From Methanosarcina barkeri MS (GTDB lineage Archaea; Halobacteriota; Methanosarcinia; Methanosarcinales; Methanosarcinaceae), in assembly GCF_000970025.1 (NCBI RefSeq), contig NZ_CP009528.1:4079168-4143167 (forward strand): DNA of 64,000 nucleotides, given 5' to 3'. The notes beneath the pieces are model-generated. The model worked only from the letters and a program-made list of their open reading frames with translations, had not been told where the DNA came from and searched no databases. Position 1 is the stretch's first letter. Each line of letters begins with the position of its first letter. Shown in pieces: positions 11,123 to 30,329 of the stretch. The position numbers and the translations under genes are program-made.

Positions 11123-12134
11123 GCTTATGGATAACGCGGGCACAGCGCTTGAAGTTCCTCGTCTTCAGGCTCGTACGGTTTCTGAATCCAGAGAAAATAA
11201 CTCTATTTTTATGGAATCCGAAACTTATGGGCTGCCAGGTACTCTTTCATACCTTGGAATCGATTGGGACCTGCTTGATATTTCAGAGTTTAAGACCTCC
11301 GAACCTCTGGGCATACTGGTTGAGCTTGCAAGGGTCGGAAAAATCGATCCATGGGATATAGACATAGTACAGCTTACTGACGGTTTCCTGAAAAAGGTGG
11401 AAGAGCTCAAGCAGATGGACCTTAGAATTTCTTCAAGGACGCTTCTTTATTCTGCTATTCTCCTGCGCATGAAATCTTCGGGAATCCTTGATGTGGAAGA
11501 GGAAGAGATTGATACATTTGATTCGGATTTTCCTGATGATCCCGATTTCCCTGAGCCTGCAGATTTTCCTATCCCGAAACTTCCAGTTCGTCGTGTATCC
11601 ACAAGGCCGGTAACACTCAATGAACTGATTCTTGAACTCAAGAAAGCCGAAAAATGCCTCTCAAGAAAAAATGAAAAAAAAGCCAGACAGATTTCAGAAG
11701 AATCCAATCCTCGCCCTAAGCTTACTACCGGAGATGTCCTTGGCATTGCACATGACGAAGCTATCAGCTCGCGGTTGTCCCTGATGTGGGAAAGGCTTGC
11801 CGAACTATTTACGAAGCAGTCTGTAGTGGTTTTTTCGAGTATACTGAAGGGAAGCGAAGACAGAATTATGGATTATCTTTCTCTTCTTTTCCTTGCCTCA
11901 AGCAAGAAAATCTGGCTTTTCCAGAATGAGCTTTTCGAAGAATTATACATCTATCCGGGAGAAGAGTCCGGCTTTTCCACCGAGGCAAATCCACCCCTCT
12001 TTCATGAGATGTTAATAAAATCAAAAACTGAAATTTCTAAGCCTGAAACTGAAGATTCTTCAGAGCTAAATTCTACAGAAGAGATCTCTCTGCATGAAAA
12101 CACTGATAAAGAGCCTGAGTTAACCGTACATTGA
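11115..12134 (+). CDS. scpA: Segregation and condensation protein A (ScpA, kleisin)
   Basis: ScpA is the kleisin that bridges the SMC heads. The N-terminal kleisin region contains EPLGILVELARVGKIDPWDIDIVQLTDGFL, here at about residues 60-90, and SRTLLYSAILLRMKS. An acidic Asp/Pro-rich linker (about 125-155) and a C-terminal winged-helix region follow. At 339 residues it is longer than typical bacterial ScpA (about 250), with an extra N-terminal segment and an acidic Ser/Glu-rich tail. The ATG overlaps the end of smc; scpB follows after about 57 bp, so the three are one operon. Confidence 0.93.
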   Translation: MAELMDNAGTALEVPRLQARTVSESRENNSIFMESETYGLPGTLSYLGIDWDLLDISEFKTSEPLGILVELARVGKIDPWDIDIVQLTDGFLKKVEELKQMDLRISSRTLLYSAILLRMKSSGILDVEEEEIDTFDSDFPDDPDFPEPADFPIPKLPVRRVSTRPVTLNELILELKKAEKCLSRKNEKKARQISEESNPRPKLTTGDVLGIAHDEAISSRLSLMWERLAELFTKQSVVVFSSILKGSEDRIMDYLSLLFLASSKKIWLFQNELFEELYIYPGEESGFSTEANPPLFHEMLIKSKTEISKPETEDSSELNSTEEISLHENTDKEPELTVH

Positions 12135-25379: not shown

Positions 25380-26885
25380 ATGAAACTGACTACCTTGAAA
25401 ACTTACAAGCTTGAAGTTTTCTTTTTATTTGCTCTGGTTATTCTGAGCTTTTTCACCCTATCAGGAAATGGAAATGCAGATAATTCTGCGGCCAGCTCTG
25501 GGGGAACTTTCTGGCTTCCTTCAGCAGTAATGCAATCAGTAGCAGCATTGTATGCCGTGTTTATTGCTATATTCATACTTTCCCTGCAAAGCAACAGGGA
25601 CAGTACTAATTCGATTGCCAACCGGATAAAACCGCCCCTGAAGATGGTATCCTATACGGCAGCAGGGACAATCTATTTTAACGGACTGATACTGATTGTT
25701 TTTAGCTTTGGCTCTTTTTCCGAAGCCAAAATGAAAGTTCTGTTAGTTTCCTCTCTTATTTCAATGGTTTTATCCCTTATAGCCATCGTTTACACTTCCA
25801 TAAACTTGCTAAGCAACGTTTCAGGCTTAAAAACCTCATCTGAAAAACTAGTATATATCTCGGATCTTCTTAGAGGACAGGAAGGAAACCCCATTAGTCC
25901 ATTAAAACAAAGCGAAAAAGATACACAGTTCTGCATCAAATCCTTGGACGACGAAAATCCGGAGGTCCGAGCAATCGCAGCCGAAGCTCTGGGCCAGGCA
26001 AGAGGTCCTGAAGTAGAGAAGGCACTTCTTGAGCTCCTCGAGGACAAGAATTCCCGAGTAAGAATAACTGCAGCCAGAAACCTCGGCCGAATAGGAACCG
26101 AAAATGCAGCAGAACCGCTAATTAAACGGCTGGCCGTAGATAAAGACCCTGTATTCCGAGCATGTGCTATAGAATCCCTTGGATATCTTAAAGACAAACG
26201 GGCAATTGAGCCTTTAATTAAAAGTCTGGATGACAAAGTTCCCGAAGTCAGGCTAGTTGCAGCCCGTGCCCTGGGGATTCTTGGTGGTGACAAGGCTGAA
26301 GAATCCCTTATCGGAAAACTGAATAAAAGCTCTCCGGAATTACAGAAACAGATAATACTGGCTCTAGGAAACTCTGGCAGCAAAAAAGCTGCAGGACTTA
26401 ACAGTAAAAAAGCCACAGGAGCTCTTATTTACAAACTAAGAGATAAGGACCCCGAACTTCGAAAGTGTGCAGCCGAATCCCTTGGTAAAATGGAAGATCC
26501 AGAGTCAGTAGACCCGCTTCTCGAATGCCTTGGTGATACGAATCCTGAAGTAAGAAATGCTGCTGCATATTCTCTGGGAACTCTCAGAGCTGAAAAAGCA
26601 ATAGACGCTCTTCTGGGAATGCTGACCGAAGAAGATTCAGAACTCCGAATCACTGCAGTCTATGCCCTTGGGAATATAGGCAGCCGAAAAGCAGTTGATG
26701 CACTTCTAAAAACTCTAGACGACAGCAACCCCTGGGTGAGGAGGTACGCCGCAGAAGCCCTCGCAAAAATAGGAGATCAAAAAGCAACAGCCCCTCTTGT
26801 CAAAAACTTAAACGATCCTGACCCTGAAGTCCAGTGGGCTACGGCTGAGGCTTTAAGGTTGCTGGATAAGCAGAACTCAAGGTAA
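25380..26885 (+). CDS. Membrane-anchored HEAT-repeat (PBS lyase-type) protein
   Basis: The 501-residue protein has four hydrophobic segments in its first 150 residues (for example LEVFFLFALVILSFFTLS and VLLVSSLISMVLSLIAIVY). About ten short HEAT repeats follow, of the type D.NPEVR..AAEALG. These run from about residue 175 to the end, with one irregular repeat near 335 holding KKAAGLNSKKATGA. HEAT solenoids bind protein partners. The membrane part suggests a scaffold on the inner face of the membrane. Partners are unknown. Nothing indicates phycobilin chemistry, despite the Pfam name often given to such repeats. Confidence 0.85.
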   Translation: MKLTTLKTYKLEVFFLFALVILSFFTLSGNGNADNSAASSGGTFWLPSAVMQSVAALYAVFIAIFILSLQSNRDSTNSIANRIKPPLKMVSYTAAGTIYFNGLILIVFSFGSFSEAKMKVLLVSSLISMVLSLIAIVYTSINLLSNVSGLKTSSEKLVYISDLLRGQEGNPISPLKQSEKDTQFCIKSLDDENPEVRAIAAEALGQARGPEVEKALLELLEDKNSRVRITAARNLGRIGTENAAEPLIKRLAVDKDPVFRACAIESLGYLKDKRAIEPLIKSLDDKVPEVRLVAARALGILGGDKAEESLIGKLNKSSPELQKQIILALGNSGSKKAAGLNSKKATGALIYKLRDKDPELRKCAAESLGKMEDPESVDPLLECLGDTNPEVRNAAAYSLGTLRAEKAIDALLGMLTEEDSELRITAVYALGNIGSRKAVDALLKTLDDSNPWVRRYAAEALAKIGDQKATAPLVKNLNDPDPEVQWATAEALRLLDKQNSR

Positions 26886-27465: not shown

Positions 27466-30096
27466 TTGTCAGGCGATAAATCAAAATCTTCGTTCGAATG
27501 CTTAAATGATGTTTCGACGAAGGAAGATGTACTTGGATTCCGTTCTTACGTCGAAGCTATCGCAGAATTTCTTACCTCCGAGGGCACAAAGCCCCCTATT
27601 ACTCTTTCTATTGAGGGACAATGGGGATGCGGTAAATCTTCTTTCATGAAGCAATTGAAAGAGGAAATTGAAAAAGGAAATATATGCGATATATCTATCA
27701 GAGAATTTTGGAAGTATCTATTTTTAAATAAGAAAAAAGCAGGTCTTCCTGAATTAAAACCTCTTATTTCTAAACTAGAAACCCTTTTTTCTTCCATTGA
27801 GGAAAAATTCTCACAAAATAATGGAAATGAACTAAATAACAAAGATGAAAATTTTGATCCATATTCCTTCGAAAATAAAATAAGAGCAATTCTGATATAT
27901 ATTCCTTCAAAAATTAAAAGAAGAAAGTATTTTACAGTCTGGTTTAACTGCTGGAGATATGAAAAAGAAGATGAGTTATGGGCTGCTTTTGCACTTAGTC
28001 TCATGGAACAGTTGTCAGAGCAACTTTCCTGGGCACAGCGATTATTAGCACAATTAAAATTAAGGTATCTCAGACTTGAGTTTAAATGGAAAAGTAAGAA
28101 TTCAATTTCTCTTCACATTTTTTTCTTTATTATTGCGGTTTGTATTCTTAGTTATTCTATTGTAAATCTTGTGACTATTTTATACTTAAATTCGATAAAT
28201 CAACTATCAGTTACTGTTTTAGCAACATTGGCCGGAATTATAGGTTCTATACTTCCGATATTCTATTTCTGGAAAGATATTAAAGACGTGATTGGCAATC
28301 CTTTTGACTTCAGCAAATTTGTATCCAATCCTAATTACACGGAGCACATATCATTCATAGAACGTTTTCATTCTGACTTCAGCAAGATAATTAAATCCTA
28401 CGCTGGAAATTCAAGAGTCTATGTCTTCATTGATGATCTAGATCGCTGTGAAATACCAAAAGCTGCAGAACTAATGCAGGCTCTAAACCTAATGATCTCT
28501 GATGAAGCGAATATTTATTTTTCCATAGGTATGGACAGAAAAGTTATCTCTGCAGGACTGGCGGCTAAAAACGAACAAATTTTCAAGTACTTAAAAATGG
28601 ATGGGCCTAATCATGGCTATGGGCTTGAATATGGCTACAATTTTATTGAAAAATTCATCCAGCTTCCTTTCAAAGTTCCGAGTCCAAAAAGCGTTGATTT
28701 TTTAAAATTTTTACCATCAGCCAATAAAATTGAAACTCCTTTAAATCCATCTGAGCCTGTAGATAAACTAAGTGTCTCTGAAGACCCTACCCCTGACAAA
28801 TCTCCGGAAAGAGACCTTAAACCCTCAAAGAATGGAAACAGCAATAAAGAAACAGGAACAATTGACCAAAATAATGATGAAACAGTATCAAATAAGCAGG
28901 AAATCCAGAATGATAAAGATTGCGTGGAAGATTATGAAACATCAAAGCTGATTCTGAAAATGGTGTCTTCTGCTCTGGATAATAATCCTCGTCGGATAAA
29001 GCAGTTCATTAATCAGTTTCGTTTCCAGAGAACTATAGGAAAAAGAACAGGTCTCTTTTCCTATAATAAAGGCACTGCTCCTGAAAATATGTGGAACTGC
29101 AAAAAACTTGCAAAATTCGTGGCAATAAGCATAAAGTGGAACTCAATCATTTCTGCTCTGAATTCAAATAGAGTGCTTCTTACCATCTTGCAGGAATATG
29201 CATTGAAGCCGGAAAATGAAGATAAAAATCTAGAGAAATGGATCCGGGACGAAAGGCTGATCGAATTTTTGAGGTACGGCTGCGTAGAAGAAAGTAATCC
29301 CTCGAAAAATGCAGCCGAATACACGTTATCAGGCCTTGATCTCAGCAAATTATTGCAGGTTTCCCCCGTCATTGTATATCCAGAAGAAAGTATGTCCGGG
29401 TCTTTACTGCCTAGTATAGATGAAATGGAATTTGTTCGGATACCAGCAGGAGAGTTTATGATGGGCTCACCTTCCGATGAGGAGGGCAGATCTGATAATG
29501 AAGGTCCCGTTCATAAAGTAACAATCAAAAATCCTTTCTACCTTGGCAAATATCCTGTTACTCAGAAGCATTGGACTGTTGTAATGGGTAGCAATCCTTC
29601 TCGTTTCAAAGGTGATAACCTGCCTGTGGAATCTATCTCGTGGAATGATGTTCAGGAGTTTATCGCAAGACTCAATGAAATAGAAGGCACCGAGAGATAT
29701 TGCTTGCCTTCCGAAGCTGAATGGGAATATGCGTGCCGTGCCGGGACAACAACAAGGTATTCCTTCGGGGATGATGAGTCGAAACTTGGAGATTATGCAT
29801 GGTATAGCAATAACTCTGGACTGAAAACTCAGCCAGTTGGCCAGAAGAAACCCGATCCATGGGACCTTTATGACATGCATGGGAATGTCTGGGAGTGGGT
29901 TCAGGGCAGATGGCACGCTAATTATGAAGGAGCTCCTTCTGATGGTAATGCTTGGGATGGAGATAGCACCTACCATGTGGTACGGGGTGGCAGCTGGAAC
30001 GACAATGCCATGGACTGCCGGTCAGCTTACCGCGGTAGGTACGGCCCCGACGACCGCAGCCCCAATGTTGGCTTCCGTCTTCTGAGGAAATTGTAA
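27466..30096 (+). CDS. KAP-family P-loop NTPase fused to an FGE/SUMF1-like domain
   Basis: This is an 876-residue two-part protein. The KAP NTPase (about 1-540) has Walker A GQWGCGKSSF at 51-60. Two transmembrane helices (about 213-235 and 244-268) are inserted before Walker B VYVFIDDLDRCEIPKA (about 319). This layout defines KAP proteins, many of which act in phage exclusion or membrane complexes. An acidic linker (about 430-490) follows. The C-terminal FGE/SUMF1-like domain (about 653-876) runs from MEFVRIPAGEFMMGSPSDEEG to RGGSWNDNAMDC...GFRLL. Of the two catalytic cysteines of true formylglycine-generating enzymes only one aligns, so the domain is probably a binding module. It uses a TTG start with GGAG upstream. 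A defence role is inference. Confidence 0.85.
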   Translation: MSGDKSKSSFECLNDVSTKEDVLGFRSYVEAIAEFLTSEGTKPPITLSIEGQWGCGKSSFMKQLKEEIEKGNICDISIREFWKYLFLNKKKAGLPELKPLISKLETLFSSIEEKFSQNNGNELNNKDENFDPYSFENKIRAILIYIPSKIKRRKYFTVWFNCWRYEKEDELWAAFALSLMEQLSEQLSWAQRLLAQLKLRYLRLEFKWKSKNSISLHIFFFIIAVCILSYSIVNLVTILYLNSINQLSVTVLATLAGIIGSILPIFYFWKDIKDVIGNPFDFSKFVSNPNYTEHISFIERFHSDFSKIIKSYAGNSRVYVFIDDLDRCEIPKAAELMQALNLMISDEANIYFSIGMDRKVISAGLAAKNEQIFKYLKMDGPNHGYGLEYGYNFIEKFIQLPFKVPSPKSVDFLKFLPSANKIETPLNPSEPVDKLSVSEDPTPDKSPERDLKPSKNGNSNKETGTIDQNNDETVSNKQEIQNDKDCVEDYETSKLILKMVSSALDNNPRRIKQFINQFRFQRTIGKRTGLFSYNKGTAPENMWNCKKLAKFVAISIKWNSIISALNSNRVLLTILQEYALKPENEDKNLEKWIRDERLIEFLRYGCVEESNPSKNAAEYTLSGLDLSKLLQVSPVIVYPEESMSGSLLPSIDEMEFVRIPAGEFMMGSPSDEEGRSDNEGPVHKVTIKNPFYLGKYPVTQKHWTVVMGSNPSRFKGDNLPVESISWNDVQEFIARLNEIEGTERYCLPSEAEWEYACRAGTTTRYSFGDDESKLGDYAWYSNNSGLKTQPVGQKKPDPWDLYDMHGNVWEWVQGRWHANYEGAPSDGNAWDGDSTYHVVRGGSWNDNAMDCRSAYRGRYGPDDRSPNVGFRLLRKL

Positions 30097-30329
30097 CAAC
30101 TTTCGACTTTACCACTTTACCACTTGAGTTACTAGCTGAAGCAAATTTGAATTCCATTGGGCGAAGCCCGAAGACCCAAAGCGTGCGAAGCCGCCGGGAC
30201 TGAGGCGCTGAGCGCTCTAAATTAAAAAATAGTTTCCTTACCCCCCGATTTCAGCCCTCTTGAGCGAACGAAGTGAGCGAAAAGGGCACCGTCCTCCCGA
30301 GACGGGACTCGGGAAGCGGAACTCGGGCG
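30097..30329. other. GC-rich, hairpin-rich tail after the KAP-FGE gene
   Basis: This gap is far richer in G and C than other gaps in the window. It contains short inverted repeats: GGGCGAAGCCC (about 30160), GCGCTGAGCGC (about 30207), and CCCGAG paired with CTCGGG (about 30296-30313). The phrase GAGCGAACGAAGTGAGCG also occurs. No gene is seen. It lies between the convergent KAP-FGE and radical SAM genes. Confidence 0.6.

Follow-up and report, generated by a model that had tools for sequence, protein, structure and literature searches.

It has been previously reported that the targets of clade 5D diversity-generating retroelements (DGRs) join an NTPase (STAND, in some cases KAP) to a C-lectin domain, and that these proteins are putative antigen sensors of multicellular bacteria (PMC10907252). 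The same study includes KAP-lectin targets and describes disrupted as well as trans-acting DGR loci (PMC10907252). In FGS-domain conflict systems, caspase, TIR or NTPase domains are followed C-terminally by an FGS/C-lectin domain, and DGRs are frequently associated (PMC7159879); in the phage BPP-1 a hairpin/cruciform located just 3' of the variable region (VR) is required for homing (PMC3240598). Here we describe, in the window (the whole 64,000-nucleotide stretch of Methanosarcina barkeri DNA that was analysed), a gene that is very probably (probability about 0.88) the orphaned variable protein of a DGR. Its product resembles the clade 5D targets in having an N-terminal P-loop NTPase and a C-terminal C-lectin/FGE VR. 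Unlike them, it belongs to an archaeal methanogen family, its reverse transcriptase (RT), Avd and template repeat (TR) are gone, and it occupies an old syntenic chromosomal locus. The C-terminal placement of the FGS/C-lectin domain is also that of the FGS-domain conflict systems, the NTPase in this case being KAP. An adenine-directed VR followed immediately by a hairpin or cruciform is shared with the BPP-1 DGR (mtd/TR/brt; PMC3240598), although the BPP-1 target is a phage tail protein and its hairpin has an 8-bp stem and a 4-nt loop, compared to a 6-bp stem and a 16-nt loop in the element described here. New relative to these reports are a target that survives as a relic, TRs preserved as fossils, and TR-bearing loci without a detectable RT.

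The gene (27466..30096, + strand, as are all features of the window given below) encodes 876 aa in an uninterrupted frame with a TTG start, the true start being uncertain. A sequence-only reading had placed a KAP P-loop NTPase and an FGE-like domain in one gene, and Pfam matches to both were recovered in the single frame. Residues 25-519 (27538..29022) match the KAP family of P-loop NTPases (KAP_NTPase, PF07693, E=1e-33), and both the Walker A motif GQWGCGKS (27616..27639) and the Walker B-like motif YVFIDDLDR (28420..28446) are intact in the sequence; by eye, two hydrophobic stretches can be read in a KAP insert at about residues 190-300. Residues 655-874 (29428..30087) form an FGE-sulfatase/C-type-lectin-like domain (PF03781, E=4e-49), and the protein ends in VVRGGSWNDNAMDCRSAYRGRYGPDDRSPNVGFRLLRKL. 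The best PDB matches of this domain are PvdO (5hha) and the DGR variable protein TvpA (2y3c), and the true FGE enzymes rank below TvpA. The same reading had noted that one of the two catalytic Cys residues is left, and an alignment of FGE proteins confirmed a Cys at only one of the two positions (RGGSWNDNAMDCRSA). The likeness to QatA of the Qat anti-phage system is confined to the NTPase, with a score of 91 bits against a curated cut-off of 600. From proposals made for other NTPase-lectin DGR targets, we infer that the FGE domain of this putative sensor may perceive a ligand while the ATPase part, KAP and its membrane insert, would pass on or execute the response; a role at the membrane and in defence is conceivable. 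Directly 5' of the gene (25380-26885) is a HEAT-repeat protein with N-terminal hydrophobic segments, an adjacency retained in several relatives.

The VR (29968..30081), defined as the stretch aligned with the template repeat of a related genome (G036), differs from this TR at 14 of 31 template adenines and at 9 of 83 other bases (Fisher p=1.4e-4). The nine non-adenine differences show that the window VR was not freshly copied from the sister-genus TR. In the VR core NDNAMDCRSAYRGRYGPDDRSPNV (29998..30069), differences among orthologues concentrate at codon positions 1-2, whereas in the rest of the gene they fall mostly at position 3. The conserved 3' end of the VR, GGCTTCCGTCTTCTGAGG (30070..30087), is nearly common to the VRs and to the TRs of G009, G036, G037 and G075; it lies where known DGRs carry their homing-initiation (IMH) sequence and may act as such. 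Plain counts of adenine and non-adenine mismatches against foreign TRs were dropped as the main proof, since single-domain FGE paralogues give a similar contrast (66% vs 34%), which makes the count alone a weak argument. The main argument for a DGR origin is the codon signature together with the TR-adjacent loci.

The codon signature was sought among the many FGE proteins of the genus. The single-domain type (~280 aa) has both Cys residues and a conserved C-terminus, while in other proteins the domain is fused to KAP, to caspase C14, to SEFIR plus phosphorylase, or to pentapeptide modules. The fused proteins and their relatives have a common scaffold, RGGSWxxxAxxCRSAxRxxxxxxxRxxxxGFRLL, with hypervariable positions in between that read NNY in the DNA: bases 1 and 2 are near-random and base 3 is C or T. 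For 22 effector-type FGE C-termini of this genus, we took the 11 columns with AAY in the template of the sister genus and compared them with 37 equally variable control columns elsewhere in the FGE domain. NNY codons made up 92% of the template-AAY columns vs 62% of the controls (Mann-Whitney p=5e-5), and the residues K, E, Q, M and W accounted for 2.9% vs 18% (Mann-Whitney p=0.002). One further VR column is NGG (R/G/W), as expected from an AGG template codon. This diversity is lacking in single-domain FGE paralogues, where pi at codon positions 1/2/3 was 0.27/0.23/0.38 vs 0.70/0.67/0.49 in the effector set. Among syntenic orthologues, with one genome taken per species, the VR core is as a rule most variable at positions 1-2 and the rest of the gene at position 3; between the window and G037, for instance, the differences at positions 1/2/3 were 0.42/0.38/0.12 in the VR core and 0.14/0.14/0.39 in the preceding FGE domain. 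The sequence-only reading had proposed a mark of adenine mutagenesis in the last ~35 codons, citing GAC, TAC, GGT, GGC, AGC and CCC. All of these codons are present exactly as given, the NNY pattern extends the mark across the 22 proteins of the genus, and the expectation that substitutions would fall at adenine sites agrees with the concentration of syntenic orthologue differences at positions 1-2 of template-adenine codons.

Immediately 3' of the stop codon, the window carries a tandem ACTTTACCACTTTACCACTT (30106..30125), followed by a hairpin element (30158..30216; model R1). This order, (CTTTACCA)n ahead of a 59-nt element that contains a covarying hairpin, holds in the window, in the genus and for the G036 and G037 genes. 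Related motifs lie 3' of the stop codon in the targets of complete DGRs as well, namely in Methanolobus (CTTTACCACTTTACAACTT) and in G178 (CTTTACCACTT), the latter with a hairpin, GGCTGGCGTGCGTCAGCCGCCAGCC, that appears similar by eye. RNAalifold returned a poor consensus on the element, and an explicit hairpin was tested in its place: 90.1% of cells were paired, against 0 of 500 shuffles. A covariance model found 26 copies in 31 genomes of the genus, 21 of them within 400 bp 3' of an FGE or KAP-FGE match. In the window copy 4 of 6 stem pairs form, which fits disuse. Because in this genus the hairpin is found specifically 3' of FGE genes, it offers an easy way to search for orphan DGR targets missed by RT-based surveys. 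A second copy in the same genome (G000:C2:3778342-3778399, - strand; L007 ~315-372) lies 1 kb downstream of a single-domain FGE gene, and what appears to be the end of another FGE frame precedes it. In G030, a MITE-like insert with terminal inverted repeats (L050 ~11160-11430) separates the KAP-FGE stop codon from the downstream element.

The host genome (G000; 4.57 Mb, 2 contigs, 99.9% complete) belongs to the family Methanosarcinaceae, as does Methanolobus psychrotolerans (G075). No TR was found in it by BLAST of the VR, by an A-or-same-base pattern allowing up to 3 mismatches, or with a model of the TR-downstream RNA. It encodes four RTs, two of the group II intron type (L001, L002), one of CRISPR type adjoining a Cas6-like ORF (L003) and one Drt8-type antiviral enzyme (L004, G000:C2:423462; PADLOC E=1e-149). 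None is of the DGR type (SQ in motif 4, IGxxxSQ), and all four were ruled out as DGR RTs by their motifs and families. Queries with the BPP-1 and Methanolobus DGR RTs detected no DGR RT in the 31 genomes of the genus, the host included; weak matches to the BPP-1 RT in G011, G019, G024 and G028 belonged to the group II or CRISPR types, with QG and no SQ. bAvd-like and HRDC proteins gave no tblastn match in the window, and viral contigs yielded neither a DGR RT with the Methanolobus RT query nor a TR-like pattern. The absence of an RT and a TR noted from the window alone therefore extends to the whole genome, and the suggestion that the binding face may be diversified now was not borne out. With neither a TR nor a DGR RT, and yet with position 1-2 differences among orthologues, diversification would be historical in this genome and the present VR is probably frozen.

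To these absences the relatives add templates. In G036, a genome of another genus in the same family, the same locus beside radical-SAM and ribosomal genes contains a KAP-FGE gene, a caspase-FGE gene, a TR ~3 kb downstream of the KAP-FGE gene, and a TR-downstream RNA. The caspase-FGE VR differs from this TR at 21 of 31 adenines and at 0 of 83 other bases (p=1e-15), and the KAP-FGE VR at 13 of 31 adenines and 4 of 83 other bases (p=5e-6). An orthologue demonstrably paired with a TR is thus found at this very locus. Behind the KAP-FGE gene of G037 come the downstream hairpin element and an ORF for a DGR accessory protein, and another FGE target in that genome matches its own TR at 83 of 83 non-adenine bases. 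Whole-genome tblastn with two DGR RTs did not find a DGR RT in G036 or G037, masked stretches aside. Within the genus of the window, the same locus in G009 holds a truncated KAP gene that runs into an asparagine-rich TR fossil (WNTNARNCRSANRNKNYPGSHNNNVGFRLL), and the sequence 3' of this fossil aligns with the TR-downstream sequences of two complete DGRs. One of these, in M. psychrotolerans YSF-03 (G075, L071/L130), comprises an FGE target, an HRDC protein, bAvd, an RT with IPIGNLTSQ and YMDD, and a TR; its VR and TR differ at 17 adenines and at 2 other positions, these being among the final bases at the edge of the repeat. The other, in G178, also has an FGE target and was seen as well in the uncultured archaeon LFW-280_2_2. 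The window gene resembles both in its FGE-domain target, in the downstream CTTTACCACTT motif and in variable columns that fit their TR codons, and it shares its type of hairpin with the G178 DGR. In contrast to the window, both keep the RT, bAvd, the HRDC accessory and the TR, and the Methanolobus target has a different N-terminus. The earlier proposal, a KAP NTPase joined to a C-lectin/FGE scaffold that carries a DGR-type VR, is supported independently by the TRs of the relatives, by the NNY pattern and by the target hairpin downstream. TR-downstream RNA-like sequences also occur away from FGE genes in G038, G022, G039 and G037 (L230-L232, L234, L235); these are possibly dispersed copies or an overlap with another intergenic repeat.

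Two of these relatives bear on whether diversification has ceased. At L228 (G036:C1:394000-413000) and L229 (G037:C63), a target and a TR show 0 of 83 non-adenine differences in genomes where no DGR RT was found, which implies either a very recent loss of the RT or its supply in trans. On the strength of these two genomes, it could be proposed that Methanosarcinaceae of this group still diversify KAP-, caspase- and SEFIR-linked FGE sensors without a recognisable chromosomal DGR RT, the enzyme coming from a visiting element, from another cell, or from a diverged CRISPR, group II or Drt RT; we consider this unlikely. For the window gene itself, the corresponding proposal is that a viral or plasmid-borne RT and TR, or those of another strain, occasionally act on its VR. 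The 83/83 identity in the two sister-genus loci speaks for it, as does the trans action argued for Thiohalocapsa DGRs (PMC10907252). In addition, silent third bases (in codons for the same residue) are more conserved from the VR to the end of the gene than in the preceding FGE domain (differences at 2/21 vs 42/113 in G037 and 4/18 vs 54/126 in G036), as templated overwriting would give. However, the own genome has no TR, the viral contigs held neither such an RT nor a TR-like pattern, and the target hairpin in the window lacks 2 of its 6 pairs, so that continued diversification of this VR in trans appears quite improbable.

Two further readings were considered. An FGE-like protein of the ordinary kind, with ligand loops that had diverged by positive selection and no retroelement involved, would share the RGGSW...CRSA...GFRL motif, which is common to FGE-like proteins generally, and this genome indeed contains no DGR RT or TR. 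Ordinary selection does not produce near-random first and second positions with C or T only at the third, nor a near absence of K, E, Q, M and W; moreover, a TR is syntenic in G036 and a TR fossil is present in G009, and we regard this reading as highly improbable. That the gene encodes an ATPase with a working formylglycine-generating (sulfatase-activating) enzyme attached is scarcely credible: the PF03781 match is compatible with it, but only one of the two Cys positions is occupied, the neighbours of that Cys vary freely among orthologues, and the closest solved relatives are PvdO and TvpA.

The history of the locus can be followed for the favoured reading, an orphaned DGR target. KAP-FGE genes occupy one syntenic locus in G000, G030, G006, G007, G023, G004, G029, G036 and G037, with remnants in G001, G002 and G009. 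Between G000 and G030 the flanks are 91-94% identical and positions 28298-30117 only 75%, and the third-base difference is 0.11 over the first 190 KAP residues vs 0.45 over the FGE domain; the gene is thus a mosaic. One KAP NTPase like that of the window (G023:C84, L055 2671-5229) has C-terminal pentapeptide repeats in place of the FGE domain, showing the C-terminal module to be exchangeable, and the neighbouring targets in sister genomes carry caspase or SEFIR domains. In the simplest history, an ancestral DGR at the locus would have comprised the target gene or genes, an HRDC accessory, bAvd, an RT and a TR. Copies of its AAC-rich template repeat, with template adenines replaced at random, would have entered the 3' end of KAP-FGE and so randomised the ligand face of the C-lectin-like domain, and sensor and TM segments would have been exchanged. 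The RT would have been lost first, with Avd lost too, and the TR afterwards, leaving a diversified VR and a decaying target hairpin. Deletion of the RT may have been easy, as the VR and the TR form direct repeats on either side of it. On this reading, a methanogen family joins the organisms shaped by targeted hypermutation, and the decay of such a system can be seen at one chromosomal locus across two genera, where target, template, accessory and downstream hairpin remain and the RT is lost. The sister-genus TR loci without an RT, in turn, provide a direct test case for a template and a target served in trans.

Related fusions and a split frame were also seen. In G026, a SEFIR domain, a nucleoside phosphorylase and an FGE domain are fused (L067 8363-10537; Pfam), and an FGE protein of the window's own genome (L006/L019, ~G000:C2:2744988) has a SEFIR/TIR-like N-terminus similar, by eye, to this fusion. 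The KAP-FGE of G004 (L056 8210-10803) is in two frames, split near residue 221, and has an in-frame TAG; it could be a broken gene, or a pyrrolysine codon could be part of the cause.
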